Source of the DNA: an uncultured Bacteroidia bacterium
Lineage (GTDB): Bacteria > Bacteroidota > Bacteroidia > Bacteroidales > UBA932
Length of the DNA stretch: 50,860 nucleotides
NCBI GenBank assembly: GCA_902789445.1
Contig: CADAOB010000010.1
Coordinates: 1 to 50,860, forward strand
Direction of reading: 5' to 3'
A model generated the notes under the pieces. It worked only from the letters and a program-made list of their open reading frames with translations. It was not told the DNA's origin and made no database searches. Made by a program: the position numbers and the translations under genes. Below, piece after piece: positions 37,302-44,863 of the stretch; positions within the stretch are counted from its first letter, which is position 1; each line of letters opens with the position of its first letter.

Positions 37302-38381
37302 ATGGCAGAAAAAGTCTTGATGAAGGGTAACGAAGCCATCGCCTACGCAGCCATCAACTGCGGCGCCGACGGCTATTTCGGCTACCCGATCACTCCCCAG
37401 TCAGAAGTAATGGAAACCCTGATGAAGGAGAAACCCTGGGAAAGCACCGGCATGGTCGTCCTCCAGGCAGAAAGTGAAACAGCCTCCATCAATATGGTCT
37501 ATGGCGGCGCCGCCTGCGGCAAGAAAGTGATGACCTCCTCCTCCAGCCCGGGCATCAGCCTGATGTGCGAAGGCCTCACCTATCTGGCCGGCAGCGAGCT
37601 CCCCTGCCTGGTGGTCAACGTCATGCGCGGCGGCCCGGGCCTGGGTACCATCCAGCCCAGCCAGGGCGACTATTTCCAGGCCACCAAGGGCGGCGGACAC
37701 GGCGACTACCGGCTCATCGTCCTGGCCCCTGCCTCCGTGCAGGATATGTATGATTTCGTGGATACGGCCTTCGAGCTGGCCTTCAAGTACCGCAACCCGG
37801 CCATGATCCTGGCCGACGGCGTCATCGGCCAGATGATGGAGAAAGTCGAGTTCCGGCCGAAGAAAGCGCGCCGCACCGACGAGGAAGTCCGCCAGCAGTG
37901 CGACAGCTGGGCCACCCTCGGCAAGCCCAAGACCCGCGAACGCAACATCATCACCTCCCTGGCCCTCGACCCGGTGGTCATGGAGAACTTCAACATCAAG
38001 CTCCAGAAGAAATACGCCGAGATCGAAGCCAACGAAGTCCGCTACAGCACCTACAAGACCGAGGACGCCGAACACCTGATCGTCGCCTTCGGCTGCATGT
38101 CCCGCATCTGCGAGAACGTGGTGGACATGGCCCGTGAAAACGGAATCAAGCTCGGCCTGCTGCGCCCGATCACCCTCTTCCCCTTCCCGAAGAAACCGAT
38201 CGACGCACTCGTTCCGCAGCTCAAGAGCATCATGTCGGTCGAGCTCAACGCCGGCCAGATGGTCGAAGACGTACGGCTTGTTGCCAACGGCCGCGTGCCC
38301 GTCGGATTCTACGGCCGCCAGGGCGGCGTGGTCCCCAACCCCGACGAAATTTATGAAGCATTCCTCAAATTCATCAAATAA
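37302..38381 (+). CDS. 2-oxoacid:ferredoxin oxidoreductase, alpha subunit (VorB/KorA-like)
   Basis: 359 residues. LMKGNEAIAYAAINCGADGYFGYPITPQSE (seen as GNEAIAYAAINCG and YFGYPITPQSEVM) is the alpha-subunit start; it continues SSSPGISLMCEGLTYLAGSELP and NVMRGGPGLGTIQPSQGDYF, ending with the transketolase C-terminal-like domain. With its partners it oxidises a 2-oxoacid (2-oxoisovalerate or 2-oxoglutarate; the sequence does not decide) to acyl-CoA with ferredoxin as acceptor, or runs in reverse. Confidence 0.92.
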   Translation: MAEKVLMKGNEAIAYAAINCGADGYFGYPITPQSEVMETLMKEKPWESTGMVVLQAESETASINMVYGGAACGKKVMTSSSSPGISLMCEGLTYLAGSELPCLVVNVMRGGPGLGTIQPSQGDYFQATKGGGHGDYRLIVLAPASVQDMYDFVDTAFELAFKYRNPAMILADGVIGQMMEKVEFRPKKARRTDEEVRQQCDSWATLGKPKTRERNIITSLALDPVVMENFNIKLQKKYAEIEANEVRYSTYKTEDAEHLIVAFGCMSRICENVVDMARENGIKLGLLRPITLFPFPKKPIDALVPQLKSIMSVELNAGQMVEDVRLVANGRVPVGFYGRQGGVVPNPDEIYEAFLKFIK

Positions 38382-38389
38382 TCAGGACT

Positions 38390-39151
38390 ATGGACATCAA
38401 TGACATCATCAAGCCCGAAAACAAGGTTTACGGCAAATCGTCGGTTCTGACCGACAACATTATGCACTATTGTCCTGGTTGCTCCCACGGCGTGGTCCAC
38501 AAACTGGTGGCCCAGGTCATCGAGGAGATGGACATCCAGGACAAGACCATCGGCGTCAGCCCGGTGGGCTGCTCCGTGTTCGCCTACAACTATCTGGACA
38601 TCGACTGGCAGGAAGCCGCCCACGGCCGCGCACCGGCCCTGGCGACCGCCATCAAGCGCCTCAACCCCGACAAATACGTGTTCACCTACCAGGGTGACGG
38701 CGACCTGGCCTCCATCGGTACGGCCGAAACGATGCACGCCTGCAACCGCGGCGAGAACATCGTCATCATCTTCATCAACAACGCCATCTACGGCATGACC
38801 GGCGGCCAGATGGCCCCGACCACCCTGCTGGGACAGGTAACCGCCACCACGCCGTATGGCCGCAAAGCCGAGCTCAACGGTTATCCGCTCAAGATCACGG
38901 AGCTCCTCGCACAACTGGAAGGCACCTGCTACGTCACCCGCCAGAGCGTCCAGAACCCGGCCGCCGTCCGCAAGACGAAAGCCGCCATCCGCAAGGCGTT
39001 CGAGAATTCGATGATGAAGAAAGGCACCTCCTTCGTGGAAGTGGTCAGCACCTGCAACTCCGGCTGGAAGATCTCCCCGGTGGAAGCCAACAAGTGGATG
39101 GAAGAGAACATGTTCCCCTTCTACCCGCTCGGTGATATGAAAGACAGATAA
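38390..39151 (+). CDS. 2-oxoacid:ferredoxin oxidoreductase, beta subunit (TPP-binding)
   Basis: 253 residues. Binds thiamine diphosphate: MHYCPGCSHGVVHKLVAQV, ISPVGCSVFAYNYL-like block (reads GVSPVGCSVFAYNYLDID), the GDGD-type motif in YQGDGDLASIGTAE, and IFINNAIYGMTGGQMAPTT. Forms the active site with the alpha subunit. 8 bases after the alpha gene. Confidence 0.93.
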   Translation: MDINDIIKPENKVYGKSSVLTDNIMHYCPGCSHGVVHKLVAQVIEEMDIQDKTIGVSPVGCSVFAYNYLDIDWQEAAHGRAPALATAIKRLNPDKYVFTYQGDGDLASIGTAETMHACNRGENIVIIFINNAIYGMTGGQMAPTTLLGQVTATTPYGRKAELNGYPLKITELLAQLEGTCYVTRQSVQNPAAVRKTKAAIRKAFENSMMKKGTSFVEVVSTCNSGWKISPVEANKWMEENMFPFYPLGDMKDR

Positions 39152-39165
39152 AAACAGTGCACAGT

Positions 39166-39711
39166 ATGAAAGAAGAAATCATCATAGCCGGATTCGGAGG
39201 ACAGGGCGTCCTCTCGATGGGCAAGATCCTCGCCTACGGCGGCATCATGCAGGACCAGGAAGTCTCCTGGCTCCCCTCCTACGGCCCGGAAATGCGTGGC
39301 GGCACCTGCAACGTAAGCGTCATTCTGAGTGACAACAAGATCAGCTCGCCGATCCTGAGCCGCTTCGACACGGCCATCATCCTCAACCAGCAGTCGATGG
39401 ACAAGTTCGAGAAACAGGTCAAGCCGGGCGGACTGCTGATCTACGACACCAACGGCATCACCCGCCACCCCGAGCGCACCGACATTACCGTCTGCCGCAT
39501 CGACGCGGTGGAGGAAGCCGCCAAATTGGGCAATGCCAAAGCCTACAACATGGTCGTCCTGGGCGCCTTCCTCAAGATGAAACCGATCGTCACGATGGAA
39601 AACGTGATCCGGGGCCTCAAGAAGTCGCTCCCGCCGCGGCGTCACAACCTCATTCCGATGAATGAGGAAGCGATCACCGTCGGCATGAACGCCGTCGTCA
39701 AAGTCAGATAG
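39166..39711 (+). CDS. 2-oxoacid:ferredoxin oxidoreductase, gamma subunit
   Basis: 181 residues from the ATG at 39166; an in-frame GTG at 39157 is less likely. EIIIAGFGGQGVLSMGKILA is the nucleotide/CoA-binding start of the gamma domain, followed by PSYGPEMRGGTCNVSVILSD. It completes the four-subunit complex. The stop converges on the TonB receptor stop, 4 bases apart. Confidence 0.93.
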   Translation: MKEEIIIAGFGGQGVLSMGKILAYGGIMQDQEVSWLPSYGPEMRGGTCNVSVILSDNKISSPILSRFDTAIILNQQSMDKFEKQVKPGGLLIYDTNGITRHPERTDITVCRIDAVEEAAKLGNAKAYNMVVLGAFLKMKPIVTMENVIRGLKKSLPPRRHNLIPMNEEAITVGMNAVVKVR

Positions 39712-39715
39712 GATC

Positions 39716-41653
39716 CTACAACTCGACCACGAATCCGGCATTGAACCAGAGGCCCGGCATCAGCAGGCCGCCGAAATCGAAATACCGGGTTCCGGTCAGG
39801 TTCTCCGCTTCAAGATAGATCCGCAACGATCCGTTGCGGATCCATTTTTTTGACACGTAGCTCAAGTTGCCGTTCAGCAGGAAATACGGACGGTAGGCCG
39901 CCGTGGTGCCGTCGGCCGCGGAATAATTGCCGATACGGTCGTAGAGCGTACCGTCCAGGTGGAGGTTGATCCGGCCGTCGAAGGGACGCAGGTCGAGGGC
40001 CGCGCCCAGTTTGTTGCGCAGATAGTCGAGGGCATAGGCTGAGATCAGGCCGGCGCTCTCCTTGCCCGTGCGGATAAAGCCATAGAGCAGCGTCGCGCGG
40101 TGGAGCAGGTTTTCATCCCGGTATTCCGCCTTGATGTCGGCGCCATAGGTATCGAGTTCCGTGATCTGCATGGAATGCCACTCGGACTGGGCACTTTCCC
40201 GCACCCAGTCGATCACATTGTCGCCGTGCCGGTAGAAGCCCGTCAGCGCCACGCCGAAGCAGCCCGTCGCATAGCTGACGCCCGCCCTGCCGGTGAGGGC
40301 GCGCTCCGGCTGCAGGTTCGGATTGCCCTTGTGCCCGGGTGCATTGTAATAGAGGTCCGTGAAAGTGGGAAGCCGCATCGACTGGGCGACTCCCGCATCG
40401 AAATGCCAGCCGCGGACCGGACGCCAGTCGAGATGGGCGTTCCAGAGCGGTGCGGTGCCATACGGAGAAAAGGCTGCACCCGCAGAGACCTGCATGCCCA
40501 GGGTCCGGCAGCTCCATTCGTGGCGGAGGAAAGCGTCGCCGGTATGACGGACCTTGTATTTGGTATAGGTACGGTCATAGCCCTTGACCTGAAGACGGCT
40601 TTCGCGGATCTGTCCCTCGGCGATCGGATCGCCGAGAACCGTACTCAGGATGACATTGGAGGCATAGTTGGCCACCACGGTCGTCGTGCCGGCCGCCCAG
40701 TTGTAGCCGACGGCGGCGTGGGCGCCGTAGTTGTCGGTCTGGTGATGGTTGTAGGGGACGCGGGATTCATCGCCCCGGATCAGTTGGAAACAGTCGAAAT
40801 TCTTGCGGTAGGCGATCCAGTGGTCAAACGTGAGCCGGCCGGAAGCTTTCATCCAGCGGATGGAGCCCAGGGCCGTGGAGGTCTTCTCATACTGGTCGGG
40901 AAAAGCCAGCGAATAGAAACCGGCAGCACCGAAATCGCGCTTCTGCCAACCGGCCTGCGCGTCGATGGTACCGCTCTTGGGCGTGATGTAGGTCGCCCGG
41001 GCATAGGTGTTCCAGTTGGCGAAATCCGTCCCCGGCTGGTAGCCAGCGCTGCGGCGGTAGGAGCCGGCGCCCAGCAGCGTGAGCCGCTCGCCGGACAGGC
41101 GCTTTGCGCCGCTCAGGTTCCCATAGAAATAGCGGTGGCTGCCCCAGGTGAAATTGCCGCGCAGGAAATCCCGCTCGCTCCGGAGCGTACGCATGTTCAC
41201 GGCGCCGGTCAGGCCCGTGTTGCCGCCGATTCCCTCGACCAGGTCGATGCCGGAAAGCAGGTCGGCATCCACCGGCAGGCTGTGGCTCTGGTGGCCGGTG
41301 CGGGCATCGGTGAAATCGATGCCGTTGAGCTGGACCATCGTCTGGTCGAAGCTGCCGCCCCGGATGCAGATGTCCGTCTGGACGCTTTTTCCGCCCCGTT
41401 CGCGGATGTCGATGGCCGGCATCATGCGGAGCAGCTGTTCCGTGGTACGGGCGTGTCCTTCAGGCAGGTCAGCCCGGCTGATGAGTGCTTCCTGGGTCAT
41501 CAGGCTGCGCATGCCGGCACCTTTGTCGGCGGCGATGACCGTGGTCCGGATCGTATCTTTCTCAGGCTTCCGCTGCTCGCGGGGTTCCAGGTTCTGCGCA
41601 AGGCAGGGCAGTGCTGCAACCAGGCAGCACGCGGCGAAAAGCATCTGTTTCAT
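39716..41653 (-). CDS. TonB-dependent outer-membrane receptor, probably for a queuosine precursor
   Basis: 645 residues with a signal peptide ending LPCLA|Q. A TonB box is likely at DTIRTTVIAAD (about 33-43). The plug domain covers about 60-165 (TTEQLLRMMPAIDIRERGGK, DICIRGGSFDQTMVQLNGI), followed by a barrel of about 22 strands. It lacks the carboxypeptidase-like N-terminal domain and any SusD partner, so it is a small-ligand receptor of BtuB size and not a glycan importer. It begins 17 bases after queF and is the third gene of the yhhQ-queF unit, controlled by a preQ1-type leader. Import of queuine, preQ1 or preQ0 is therefore the best inference; a cobamide or siderophore ligand is the alternative. 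Confidence 0.85.
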   Translation of the reverse strand: MKQMLFAACCLVAALPCLAQNLEPREQRKPEKDTIRTTVIAADKGAGMRSLMTQEALISRADLPEGHARTTEQLLRMMPAIDIRERGGKSVQTDICIRGGSFDQTMVQLNGIDFTDARTGHQSHSLPVDADLLSGIDLVEGIGGNTGLTGAVNMRTLRSERDFLRGNFTWGSHRYFYGNLSGAKRLSGERLTLLGAGSYRRSAGYQPGTDFANWNTYARATYITPKSGTIDAQAGWQKRDFGAAGFYSLAFPDQYEKTSTALGSIRWMKASGRLTFDHWIAYRKNFDCFQLIRGDESRVPYNHHQTDNYGAHAAVGYNWAAGTTTVVANYASNVILSTVLGDPIAEGQIRESRLQVKGYDRTYTKYKVRHTGDAFLRHEWSCRTLGMQVSAGAAFSPYGTAPLWNAHLDWRPVRGWHFDAGVAQSMRLPTFTDLYYNAPGHKGNPNLQPERALTGRAGVSYATGCFGVALTGFYRHGDNVIDWVRESAQSEWHSMQITELDTYGADIKAEYRDENLLHRATLLYGFIRTGKESAGLISAYALDYLRNKLGAALDLRPFDGRINLHLDGTLYDRIGNYSAADGTTAAYRPYFLLNGNLSYVSKKWIRNGSLRIYLEAENLTGTRYFDFGGLLMPGLWFNAGFVVEL

Positions 41654-41670
41654 GTTCTCTCTCCTCCCCC

Positions 41671-42132
41671 CTATTGATGATTGGCAAAACGCTGAACCGC
41701 AAGGGCCTCGTAGCGGGTACCCGGGCGGCCGTAATTGGCATAGGGGTAAATGGAGATGCCGCCGCGCGGCGTAAAGAGGCCGGTCACCTCGATATATTTG
41801 GGATCCATCAGGGCTTTGAGGTCCTTGAGAATCGTGTTGACCGTGTCTTCGTGGAAGCCGCCGTGGTTGCGGAAGCTGGTCAGGTACAGCTTGAGCGATT
41901 TGCTCTCGACCATCCGCTGGTCCGGAATGTAAGAAATGCGGATTTCCGCGAAGTCGGGCTGTCCGGTGATCGGGCAGACCGTGGTGAATTCAGGGCAGTT
42001 GAAGCGCACCCAATAATCCAGGTCGGGATGCTGGTTGGAGAATGTTTCAAGTACCTCGGGTGTATAGTCGAAGCGATACGGAGTCTCGTGGCCCAGGGCG
42101 CCGAGTCCTTCTTTCTTTCTGTCGTTTTCCAT
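41671..42132 (-). CDS. queF: NADPH-dependent 7-cyano-7-deazaguanine (preQ0) reductase
   Basis: 153 residues, the short unimodular QueF. The catalytic Cys is in [18 protein letters not shown] (about residue 51, with its partner Asp) and the NADPH motif is [21 protein letters not shown]. It reduces preQ0 to preQ1 in queuosine synthesis. It begins 1 base after the yhhQ stop and is followed by the receptor gene. Confidence 0.96.
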
Positions 42133-42133
42133 A

Positions 42134-42850
42134 TTATTCTATTTTGTTGATGAACGGATTGTATGAAATATCATAATCATAGGTATCCAGTCCTTCCGCC
42201 TGCTTGAGGCGCCGTGCGATGACGCCGGTGAGGGGCAGGATCAGGACCTCGTAGAGCGTCTTGACCGTCACCTGGGTCAGGATGATCGAGAAGATGGCAC
42301 CCAGCGGCATCACGCCCAGGAAAGCCAGCGGATAGAAGACCAGGGAATCGCAGAGTTCGCCGCCGAGCGTGGACAGGATGGCACGCCAGCCGAAACCCTT
42401 TCCCTGCTGGAGCACTTTCATGCGCGACATCACCCAGGCGTTCATCTGCGAGCCGAGGATGAAGGCCAGCAGCGAGGCGACCGTCGTGCGGGGAATCAGT
42501 CCGAAGAGGGAATTGAAATTCGCGGCGACAGCCTGGTTCTCCGGATAGATCGGCGCCGGCAGCCAGCTTACCAGCTGGGCGGCGATGGCCACGAAGGCAC
42601 TCAGGGCAAAGCCCATCCAGATGACCTGCATGGCCCGGCGATAGCCATAGACCTCCGTCAGCAAGTCGTTGATGATGTAAGAAATCGGGAAGATGACGAC
42701 AGCGCCGGAAAGTTGCAGCGAGAACTTTCCCACCTGCCAGAGACGGGGGACAAAGAGGTTGGAGGTTACCAGGCACACACAGAAGGTGACAGCCAGCCAG
42801 ACGAAAGTGATGGACAGCCCCTGCTGTCCGGATTTGTTGTTTTCAGACAT
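42134..42850 (-). CDS. yhhQ: Queuosine precursor transporter, YhhQ/VUT family
   Basis: 238 residues with six membrane segments. Family features: [41 protein letters not shown] and [17 protein letters not shown]. Members import preQ0/preQ1 across the inner membrane. First gene of the unit. The leader ends in a preQ1-I-like pseudoknot 6 bases before the ATG. Confidence 0.93.
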
Positions 42851-42856
42851 TTTCTA

Positions 42857-42885
42857 CTTGTTTTTAGAGTGGTTCCAAGCACACT
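42857..42885 (-). promoter_or_regulatory. preQ1-I-like riboswitch upstream of yhhQ
   Basis: On the minus strand: AGTG (42885-42882), loop containing CTTG (42879-42876) and GAAC, CACT (42871-42868), an A-rich linker CTAAAAA, then CAAG (42860-42857). AGTG/CACT forms stem 1, and the loop CTTG pairs with the tail CAAG as stem 2, an H-type pseudoknot with an A-rich third loop. This is the architecture of class I preQ1 riboswitches, whose ligand-binding C lies just before the second P1 strand, as here in GAAC-CACT. It ends 6 bases before the yhhQ ATG. Read by eye; stem 1 is only 4 pairs. Confidence 0.6.
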
Positions 42886-42914
42886 TGCGGCGGGGCTTTC
42901 CCGCTACTCGGCGG

Positions 42915-42922
42915 CAAAGATA
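42915..42922 (-). promoter_or_regulatory. -7 promoter box for yhhQ-queF-receptor
   Basis: Minus strand TATCTTTG, exact. The leader would be about 60 bases, which includes the pseudoknot. Confidence 0.65.
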
Positions 42923-42991
42923 AGACAAAATTTGTAATTTTAAGGGCCGATTCCTGCAACAAAGCATTTCGGCGGACGTTTTAAAGACAGA

Positions 42992-43507
42992 ATGACCCGA
43001 AAAGAGATCACAGCGTTTTACCAGGCCCACAGCCGCCGGCTCTTCAACATGAGCCGCCGGATCCTCCTTACGACGGAGGATGCGGAAGAGGTGATGCAGG
43101 ACACGATCCTCAAGTTCGTGACGATGCCCTTCCGCCCGATGAAGCCCGAACAGGTGTCAGCCTGGCTTGCACGCACCTGCATCCGCGCTTCGGTGGACCG
43201 GCTCCGCAAACGCGAGCGGGAAGCGGCATTCCTGGAAGAATACGCCCTCGAGGCCGCGGCGGAGCCGGACCCGTCGGTTCCGGCCGGGATTCCGGCCGAG
43301 ATTCCGGCCGCCCGGATCCTGCAGGCGATGGAGCGCCTGCCCGACCCCTACCGGCTGGTGGTGACGCTGGTCCTTGCCGAAGGGCTCGACTATCAGGAGA
43401 TTGCCGGCTATACCGGCATGAAGGAAGCGACGCTGCGGTCTCATTTCCTGCGCGGCAAACAGAAACTCCTAACGCTATTGAAAGAAGAAGATGGACAATC
43501 AATTTGA
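42992..43507 (+). CDS. ECF-type RNA polymerase sigma factor
   Basis: 171 residues. Region 2 (FYQAHSRRLFNMSRRILLTT, EDAEEVMQDTILKFV) and region 4 (MERLPDPYRLVVTLVLAEGL, YQEIAGYTGMKEATLRSHF) are joined by a Pro/Ala linker. It starts a three-gene unit and its end overlaps the next gene by 17 bases, the usual arrangement with a membrane anti-sigma partner. Confidence 0.92.
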   Translation: MTRKEITAFYQAHSRRLFNMSRRILLTTEDAEEVMQDTILKFVTMPFRPMKPEQVSAWLARTCIRASVDRLRKREREAAFLEEYALEAAAEPDPSVPAGIPAEIPAARILQAMERLPDPYRLVVTLVLAEGLDYQEIAGYTGMKEATLRSHFLRGKQKLLTLLKEEDGQSI

Positions 43508-43955
43508 CCTTTACGACCTGCCCGAAGGGCACCAGGACCGCTTCGAAGGGAAACTTGCCCAACGGCTCGCCCGGCGCCCGCGCCGGAAGCTCCTTCCCTG
43601 GGTTGCAGCCGCCGCCGGCCTGGCAGCCGTGGTCTGGCTCGGCCTGCGGAGCAATGCCCGCTACGCCTTCGAACGGGCGCGGACGCCGGAAGCCGTCTAT
43701 GCGGCCTATCTGGAAGAGGTCGGCAAACTCTACGAACTGCTGGCCGACAACACCGGTGCCGACAACGGCACGGTGGACTGGGAAGCGGTTCTCCACGAAC
43801 TGACCGAAGAGAACATGCCGCTCTTCGACCAGCTTCCCGAGGAACTGTCCGCAAGCGAAAAGACGGCGCTCCTCAAACAGTACTACGGCGGACTCCTCAA
43901 CGAAGCCGGACAAATCCGAAAACAATTGAACAAAGAAAACAGATTCCTGCGATGA
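43491..43955 (+). CDS. Single-pass membrane protein, probable anti-sigma factor
   Basis: 154 residues: a cytoplasmic N-terminus of about 34 residues (DLYDLPEGHQDRFEGKLAQR), one membrane segment (LLPWVAAAAGLAAVVWLGL, about 34-52), then a helical periplasmic domain. No zinc-binding motif. Position between a sigma factor and an exported protein, overlapping both (17 and 4 bases), supports an anti-sigma role. The family is one I know only as hypothetical. Confidence 0.6.
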   Translation: MDNQFDLYDLPEGHQDRFEGKLAQRLARRPRRKLLPWVAAAAGLAAVVWLGLRSNARYAFERARTPEAVYAAYLEEVGKLYELLADNTGADNGTVDWEAVLHELTEENMPLFDQLPEELSASEKTALLKQYYGGLLNEAGQIRKQLNKENRFLR

Positions 43956-44863
43956 AAAAGACTATGCTCCTTATCCTGGCGCTTGCCGCCATGCTGACCC
44001 CGGTTTTCGCAGAACCCGGATCCGACAAAGACCGATTCTCGAAGAACTACGATTACAGCGGTTTCACGACCATTTCCGTCTCCCACTCCTTCCGCGTCGA
44101 CCTGAACTTTGCCGACCGCTATGAAGTGTATGTGGAAGTCCCGGCCTACATAGAGCCTTACCTGCTCGTCACCCAAAGCGGCGAACGGCTGCGGATCGAC
44201 CTGGAACGCCTGCCGGTCGACATCCAGAACAAGCTGGGCAAGGAAGCCGACCGGCTCAAGGCCCGGATCTCCCTGCCGAAGATGACCAGCCTCCAGGCCA
44301 GCGGAGCCGTGGACATCGACGCCCACGGGAAACTGATCCTGGATGAAGAGACGCTCCGGATCCAGATCAGCGGCGCCTCCAAGCTGAATGATTTTGAGGC
44401 CGAAGGCGAGGGACAGATCCACCTCCAGCTGAGCGGGGCCTCCACGGCCTCCATGAGAGCCTCCTTCCAGGAGAAAGCCATGCTCGACCTCTCCGGTGCC
44501 TCCAAACTGGCCTTTGACGGCAGCAGCGAGACGCTCACCCTGGAGGGATCCGGCGCATCCAAAGCACAGGTCAAGGGCGACTACGACAAGGTGATCGCCG
44601 GCTTCTCAGGTTCTTCCTCGGGTAAGATCGAGGGCGATGCCGACGACCTGACGCTGGAATCTTCCGGCGCCTCCAATTTCGAAATCGAGGGCACGACCGG
44701 CGACGCGACGGTCGAACTGAGCGGCGTAGCGAAATGCCGGCTTGCCGTCAAGGGAAAACTCCAGTACGAGATTTCCGGCGTTTCCACGCTCAAAGTCAAA
44801 GATCTGGGGGTCTCGGCCAAAGGCAACATCAGCCGCGGCTCCAAATTCGAATACATCCGGTAG
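43952..44863 (+). CDS. Exported DUF2807 (GIN-domain) protein
   Basis: 303 residues with a signal peptide (MKKTMLLILALAAMLTPVFA|E). The body is a right-handed beta-helix made of repeats bearing SGAS or SGVS about every 20 residues (ISGASKLNDF, LSGASTASM, LSGASKLAFDG, GSGASKAQVKG, SSGASNFEIEG). Such head-GIN proteins are common with sigma/anti-sigma pairs in Bacteroidota; the function is not known to me, and a role as envelope-stress output or sensor is inferred. Confidence 0.85.
   Translation: MKKTMLLILALAAMLTPVFAEPGSDKDRFSKNYDYSGFTTISVSHSFRVDLNFADRYEVYVEVPAYIEPYLLVTQSGERLRIDLERLPVDIQNKLGKEADRLKARISLPKMTSLQASGAVDIDAHGKLILDEETLRIQISGASKLNDFEAEGEGQIHLQLSGASTASMRASFQEKAMLDLSGASKLAFDGSSETLTLEGSGASKAQVKGDYDKVIAGFSGSSSGKIEGDADDLTLESSGASNFEIEGTTGDATVELSGVAKCRLAVKGKLQYEISGVSTLKVKDLGVSAKGNISRGSKFEYIR

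Follow-up and report, generated by a model that had tools for sequence, protein, structure and literature searches.

YhhQ and QueT are inner-membrane importers of queuosine precursors. In the parts of a 2024 survey that we draw on, their families, QPTR/YhhQ and QrtT/QueT, are given as the only known queuosine-precursor transporter families, and the terms ‘TonB’ and ‘outer membrane’ are absent from its main text (PMC11130926). Here we analyse a 50,860-nucleotide (nt) stretch of DNA from an uncultured Bacteroidia bacterium (Bacteroidales; UBA932; assembly GCA_902789445.1, contig CADAOB010000010.1), referred to as the window, in which yhhQ and queF are followed by a gene for a TonB-dependent receptor. 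The original prediction made from this sequence proposed a route from the outer membrane (receptor) through the inner membrane (YhhQ) to QueF, and stated that no characterised TonB-dependent receptor for deazapurines was known. In agreement with that statement, no receptor of this kind for queuosine precursors was found in the literature, including the accessible text of PMC11130926, PMC6593275, PMC3766115 and PMC9508795, most subscription papers and bioRxiv being outside the scope; outer-membrane passage of these precursors is unaddressed in the literature so surveyed.

The closest described arrangement concerns thiamine. In the published account, as far as it was available to us, OMthi (BT2390), PnuT and Tnr3 of Bacteroides are controlled by thiamine pyrophosphate riboswitches and lie in one operon in most genomes, OMthi and pnuT being present in 91 of 114 gut Bacteroidetes genomes (PMC5613172). 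Single mutants have no defect there, and a biosynthesis mutant that lacks OMthi needs about 10 times more thiamine (PMC5613172).

Layout and proposed function of the operon

The minus strand of the window carries, in order, a promoter-like box, a leader, yhhQ, queF and the receptor gene:

42915..42922, minus strand: probable operon promoter, TATCTTTG, matching TAnnTTTG, which we take to be the Bacteroidota -7 box consensus
42887..42910, minus strand: 5′ portion of the leader, forming a hairpin whose base pairs vary (helix comparison of 16 sequences)
42857..42886, minus strand: putative preQ1-I-type pseudoknot core with P1 AGUG/CACU, P2 CUUG/CAAG and an A-rich tail (covariance model, P1 covariation, downstream genes)
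42134..42850, minus strand: yhhQ, inner-membrane queuosine-precursor transporter family (QPTR/COG1738; PF02592 151.9 bits; TIGR00697 97.5 bits, cut-off 50.95)
41671..42132, minus strand: queF, preQ0 reductase (QueF-II; TIGR03139 170.6 bits, cut-off 86.9)
39716..41653, minus strand: TonB-dependent receptor, 645 amino acids (PF07715 and PF00593)

The gene order and the 17-nt gap between queF and the receptor gene (41654-41670) are as originally claimed; yhhQ and queF are 1 nt apart, and a convergent oxidoreductase gene (39157-39711, plus strand) lies 4 nt beyond the end of the receptor gene. This layout suggests that the receptor is co-transcribed with the leader, yhhQ and queF. The TAnnTTTG box occurs within 60 nt upstream of the leader core in all 18 genus leaders.

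We propose that a preQ1-sensing leader would control yhhQ-queF, with YhhQ importing preQ0 and QueF reducing it, in a cell that is probably unable to make preQ0. In a lineage of two species, a BtuB/PqqU-type receptor would have been placed behind queF, co-transcribed and switched with the operon, and on this proposal would most likely have been kept for outer-membrane uptake of a queuosine precursor (preQ0, preQ1, the base or the nucleoside). Gene order, salvage genotype, fold class, purifying selection and the leader’s structure and association with queuosine genes were computed directly; the substrate of the receptor is our interpretation of them, and we hold it tentatively, with somewhat less than even confidence.

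Salvage genotype and leader

QueF exceeds its cut-off in 22 of the 40 genomes of the genus, 18 with yhhQ and four without. In the 18, yhhQ adjoins queF by coordinates (queF of G039 is split by a contig end). Full-length QueC (189-197 bits) was found in all four queF genomes that have no yhhQ match (G010, G016, G019 and G029); the 18 that carry both yhhQ and queF yielded none (Fisher P-value 1.4e-4). As many of the genomes are incomplete, individual absences carry less weight, but the yhhQ/QueC split is unaffected. These 22 genomes divide cleanly into a de novo genotype (queF and queC, no yhhQ) and a salvage genotype (yhhQ-queF, no queC). Open reading frames (ORFs) of 293-629 amino acids that matched QueC only weakly, at no more than 30 bits with neighbours counted, were read as other PP-loop enzymes.

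The window’s genome (G000, 84% complete) contains TGT and QueA and yielded neither a QueT match nor a full-length QueC. G011 (95% complete), the second species with the receptor behind queF, carries QueF, yhhQ and QueA, and full-length QueC was not found in it, TGT having been searched for in G000 only. The combination that marks preQ0 salvage (QueF, TGT, QueA, an importer and no QueC) is present, QueG and QueH lying outside the gene set searched. Given the occurrence of yhhQ-queF without QueC and the presence of TGT and QueA, preQ0 salvage is the most likely function of the operon.

The leader is not recognised by the Rfam model RF00522, which has no match in the whole window at the gathering threshold, none at E<=10 within 42780-43010 and none at E<=5 in 20 leader loci. 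It was examined instead by covariation and by a covariance model of its core built in this analysis. The leader is nearly invariant 5′ of yhhQ-queF across 16 genus genomes, and its 5′ hairpin forms a six-pair helix in which 93.8% of cells are paired and five of the six pairs have changes on both sides (16 sequences). A similar core that lacks the 5′ hairpin precedes a diverged lone yhhQ in two further genus genomes.

At E<=0.05, the core model has 55 matches, spread over 50 of the 393 order genomes. They include the window leader, which scores 52.7 bits with model R1 and is among the model’s own source sequences. The next gene at the 54 other sites is yhhQ (45 sites), queC (7) or queD (1); the remaining site, L201, has no queuosine gene and was counted as a miss. 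For L167 and L171 the labels of the ORF caller were corrected to yhhQ and queD, respectively, and the names queD and queE are based on PF01242 and PF04055 matches together with gene order.

P1 was assessed in an alignment of 53 sites, 44 of them distinct (46 order places and 7 from the genus), fitted to the assumed structure. All cells of P1 are paired (100%), 16 are changed on both sides, and the exchanges are UA/AU and CG/AU/UG. The covariation score is 0.317 versus 0.056 ± 0.022 in shuffled alignments, none of 500 shuffles scoring as high; two of five covariation measures (pairs changed and further pair types) are not above shuffles. The two strands of P2 (CUUG/CAAG) complement each other at 52 of the 53 sites and are almost invariant; since there is nearly no variation P2 shows no covariation, and complementarity is its support. 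In 52 of 53 sites, the P1 3′ strand is preceded by a C that itself follows an A. According to the part of the source used, such an AC is described for preQ1-I types II and III, and Bacteroidota are listed among the phyla carrying preQ1-I (PMC11625349). An upstream CAAG that could take over from the P2 CAAG as partner of CUUG is present in 16 of 16 genus leaders, and this alternative pairing is a possible switch. By pseudoknot anatomy, P1 covariation, the AC base and the queuosine genes downstream, the leader looks like a preQ1-I-type riboswitch and would sense preQ1. The ‘preQ1-type leader’ of the original prediction thus stands on its anatomy, its P1 covariation and the queuosine gene that comes next at 53 of 54 other sites, with RF00522 silent. 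Such a leader precedes queuosine genes in many Bacteroidales and was overlooked by Rfam in the 20 loci tested.

Fold, relatives and possible cargo of the receptor

The receptor matches TonB_dep_Rec_b-barrel (59.8 bits, cut-off 27) and Plug (30.9 bits, cut-off 23.9) and no other Pfam domain, and hence has no SusC-type N-terminal domain; no SusD-like gene lies next to it at the window locus, where the convergent oxidoreductase gene follows. Both marks of the SusC/SusD class, the N-terminal extension and the SusD partner, are missing, as had been noted originally. Inspection by eye only suggests a TonB box, DTIRTTV, behind the signal peptide. The AlphaFold2 model contains the barrel strands (mean predicted local distance difference test score (pLDDT) 79.1, predicted template modelling score 0.79). 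The best 50 of the first 226 PDB fold matches (Foldseek, E<=0.001) open with TonB-dependent receptors: BtuB (1nqg) is at the top and PqqU (9c4o) third (E 2.9e-25), ranks 14-19 are iron receptors (FrpB, PfeA) and ranks 20-27 B. thetaiotaomicron B12 transporters. PDB sequence matches at E<=0.001 are to BtuB only (best 2e-11). These matches bear out the description ‘BtuB-sized’. The nearest NCBIfam families are haem and BtuB families, all far below curated cut-offs (78.1 of 316.85 bits; 67.1 of 836), and neither curated BtuB model is reached (PRK10641, 67.1 of 836 bits; TIGR01779, 58.8 of 599.7 bits). The protein is predicted to be a small-molecule TonB-dependent receptor, and its fold class says no more.

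Between the window and G011 the receptors are 86% identical, with a ratio of nonsynonymous to synonymous divergence (dN/dS) of 0.095 and a synonymous divergence (dS) of 0.90. The corresponding values are 0.116 and 1.33 for yhhQ and 0.101 and 1.62 for queF. The receptor is therefore a working gene under purifying selection similar to that on yhhQ and queF. Since its dS is below theirs, it may have been exchanged after yhhQ and queF diverged.

Uptake of a queuosine precursor by this receptor is supported by the same arrangement in two species (14% protein divergence, dS 0.90, dN/dS 0.095) and by best fold matches to BtuB and PqqU, which are receptors for small cofactors; the OMthi precedent makes it reasonable. 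The salvage genotype, with TGT and QueA present and no QueT match, and the tie of the leader to queuosine genes also count in its favour.

Close relatives are present in five of the 40 genus genomes (G000, G011, G004, G033 and G029), the next matches being at most 34% identical. A pattern-based scan of 84,980 species, sensitive to close relatives only, returned five receptor loci: those of G011, G033, G004 and G029 and a new one in RUG13584 (L117). In only two of these six clade members, G000 and G011, does the receptor lie beside yhhQ-queF. The two group together in the receptor tree (100/100), sister to the other four.

Several observations weigh against a queuosine cargo. The fold does not identify one, since the iron receptors FrpB and PfeA fit the model almost as closely as BtuB and PqqU do. 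The four other orthologues (62-65% identity) have no queF or yhhQ nearby: the receptor follows trkH in G004 and a trkH remnant, judged by eye, in G033, starts 9 nt behind an M28 peptidase gene in RUG13584, and in G029 is divergent from a 5′-nucleotidase-like gene, with a promoter-like TACTTTTG of its own. That gene (L034:9117-10928, plus strand; PF02872) encodes a secreted-looking protein whose match covers the C-terminal domain only. G029 (98% complete) carries the receptor together with queF, queC and a queE-like gene and has no yhhQ match. The linkage to queuosine genes is consistent with a single origin. Receptor and salvage genotype are not significantly associated (4/5 vs 14/35, P-value 0.16). 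Among the 16 genus leader-yhhQ-queF operons, two contain the receptor; the 14 other genomes lack it there, G004 and G033 having it elsewhere. In the order-wide set, none of 53 leader operons showed a receptor, four of the regions ending within 2.4 kb of the leader. Because the receptor follows an unrelated gene in other contexts too (trkH, the M28 peptidase gene), hitch-hiking is plausible. On the question raised in the original prediction, whether the clade co-occurs with yhhQ, queF and leaders, a general tie is not supported, with two of six members linked.

When 20 receptor-homologue regions (up to 20 kb) were compared with the window proteins by BLAST, queF and yhhQ appeared only in that of G011; the other 19 comprise three clade members and 16 homologues at 28-42% identity. 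In the phylum, 72 yhhQ neighbourhoods were fetched and yhhQ was recognised by profile in 64, none of which has a receptor as the gene next to yhhQ, with the contig ending behind yhhQ in at least 11. A SusC-type receptor is the second gene at L305, after an unrelated gene, and at L292 a receptor lies three genes upstream on the other strand; L265 and L291, among the eight regions with no recognised yhhQ, hold a receptor-like ORF. Eleven phylum yhhQ neighbours (ten of 577-902 amino acids and the 304-amino-acid gene of L305), viewed at their N-termini only, do not look receptor-like. Within the genus, L205, L207 and L215 have a receptor-like gene further along, outside the leader operon. Both the phylum and the order-leader surveys used a hidden Markov model built from the receptors gathered here, which very dissimilar receptors may escape.

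Another gene is tied to the yhhQ-queF operon more strictly than the receptor is. In G011, the gene 7 nt behind that of the receptor (L031:6804-7427, minus strand) encodes a 208-amino-acid protein whose signal looks, by eye, like that of a lipoprotein (Cys 22). Its relatives (L206, L208, L209, L211, L215, L216, L218, L228 and L232; 36-50% identity, about 205 amino acids) bring the family to 10 of 40 genus genomes, in all 10 directly behind queF or, in G011, behind the receptor. No match was found in the window’s genome, and 295 order genomes contain one clear relative (E 6.5e-13, away from the leader of its genome) and two weak ones. Three members scanned have no Pfam match above cut-off, and the predicted fold, which is confident (pLDDT 87.5), has no PDB match at E<=0.001. 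Of the 16 genus operons, nine carry only the lipoprotein gene, that of G011 carries both genes and that of the window only the receptor gene. As leader-yhhQ-queF-lipoprotein is the commonest order in the genus, the receptor probably entered between queF and the lipoprotein gene, which the window’s species would then have lost. The linkage of the lipoprotein may reflect a role in binding the compound that the receptor takes up, and stable gene order would by itself explain it too.

The strongest alternative is that the receptor is a passenger for an unrelated small molecule, moving about the genome and settling behind transcribed genes, the queuosine operon being one such site. Six clade members in four contexts (queF in two, trkH or its remnant in two, the M28 peptidase gene and the divergent 5′-nucleotidase-like gene in one each), the 0 of 53 order-wide leader operons and the lower dS of the receptor (0.90 vs 1.33 for yhhQ and 1.62 for queF), which fits a later exchange, all argue for it. 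The position behind queF is nevertheless kept in two species at dN/dS 0.095, and a passenger would seem to gain little from a riboswitch-controlled operon. This alternative, like uptake of a queuosine precursor, falls a little short of an even chance, and we regard the two as about equally likely. General uptake of nucleosides or nucleobases, deazapurines included, is improbable: a purine-like cargo would suit both the 5′-nucleotidase-like neighbour in G029 and yhhQ-queF in the window, but that neighbour is found in one genome, its nucleotidase match is to the C-terminal domain only, and such a cargo does not suit the orthologues beside trkH and the peptidase gene. Similarly small is the chance of a cargo already known for the fold class (corrinoid, haem, PQQ (pyrroloquinoline quinone) or siderophore), towards which the BtuB-only sequence matches, the nearest NCBIfam families, the PqqU and iron-receptor folds and the report, in the text available, of PqqU from some Bacteroidota (PMC12124388) all point, whereas the NCBIfam scores are far below curated cut-offs and no cobalamin riboswitch was found at the gathering threshold in the 20 homologue neighbourhoods or the window.

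The original prediction named, as what would speak against it, orthologues located mostly with cobalamin or iron genes and lacking a queuosine link. The missing link is seen in four of six clade members; the cobalamin or iron location is not, as no cobalamin riboswitch was detected at the gathering threshold in the 20 neighbourhoods and those immediate neighbours of clade members that were scanned in Pfam include no B12 or iron families. The proposed route to QueF keeps the salvage operon, the co-oriented receptor and purifying selection in two species, with a clade that is not generally tied to queuosine. The operon and its leader are solid, and the earlier interpretation of the receptor is partly supported. 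The full picture of a 7-deazapurine TonB-dependent receptor under an Rfam-invisible Bacteroidales preQ1-I-type riboswitch, with the whole line from outer membrane through inner membrane to QueF in one operon and a lipoprotein following in the sister species, is rather doubtful, being roughly a one-in-three proposition in our judgement.

The oxidoreductase gene set downstream (37302-39711, plus strand) is convergent with the operon. Its tree joins G000 and G011 (99/99), and the yhhQ-queF tree separates them, placing G011 with G027 (89/82); given this discordance, exchange at the locus is possible. Upstream lies a divergent gene for an extracytoplasmic function (ECF)-type sigma factor (42992-43507, plus strand). 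The interval 42992-44863 (plus strand) encodes this factor, a 154-amino-acid protein with no Pfam match and a DUF2807 protein, and of 28 other yhhQ loci in the genus, nine have the sigma gene beside yhhQ.

Comparison with described systems

Compared with preQ1-I (RF00522), for which the B. subtilis aptamer served as reference, the leader shares the H-type pseudoknot anatomy, the AC before the P1 3′ strand and the A-rich tail; it differs in that the Rfam model is silent, P2 is CUUG/CAAG and the genus leaders have an extra 5′ hairpin. BtuB and the Bacteroides BtuB transporters resemble the receptor as top fold match, sole PDB sequence match and fold ranks 20-27, whereas identity to BtuB in the top fold alignment is 16%, the score is 67.1 bits against a cut-off of 836 and no cobalamin riboswitch is nearby. 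PqqU (YncD), at fold rank 3, is likewise a TonB-dependent receptor, described in the text consulted as scavenging a small soluble cofactor (PMC12124388); it is 14% identical, and PQQ is not a deazapurine. Of the QPTR/YhhQ and QrtT/QueT families, both of which we take to be inner-membrane, YhhQ provides the first gene of the operon. The OMthi set, as far as its description was available, is widespread and genetically tested, while the receptor in the queuosine operon occurs in two species and its role there is a prediction. The two sets are alike in combining a riboswitch, an outer-membrane TonB-dependent receptor, an inner-membrane importer and a salvage enzyme, and a receptor with YhhQ and QueF under a preQ1-type leader offers a direct test case for outer-membrane uptake of queuosine precursors.

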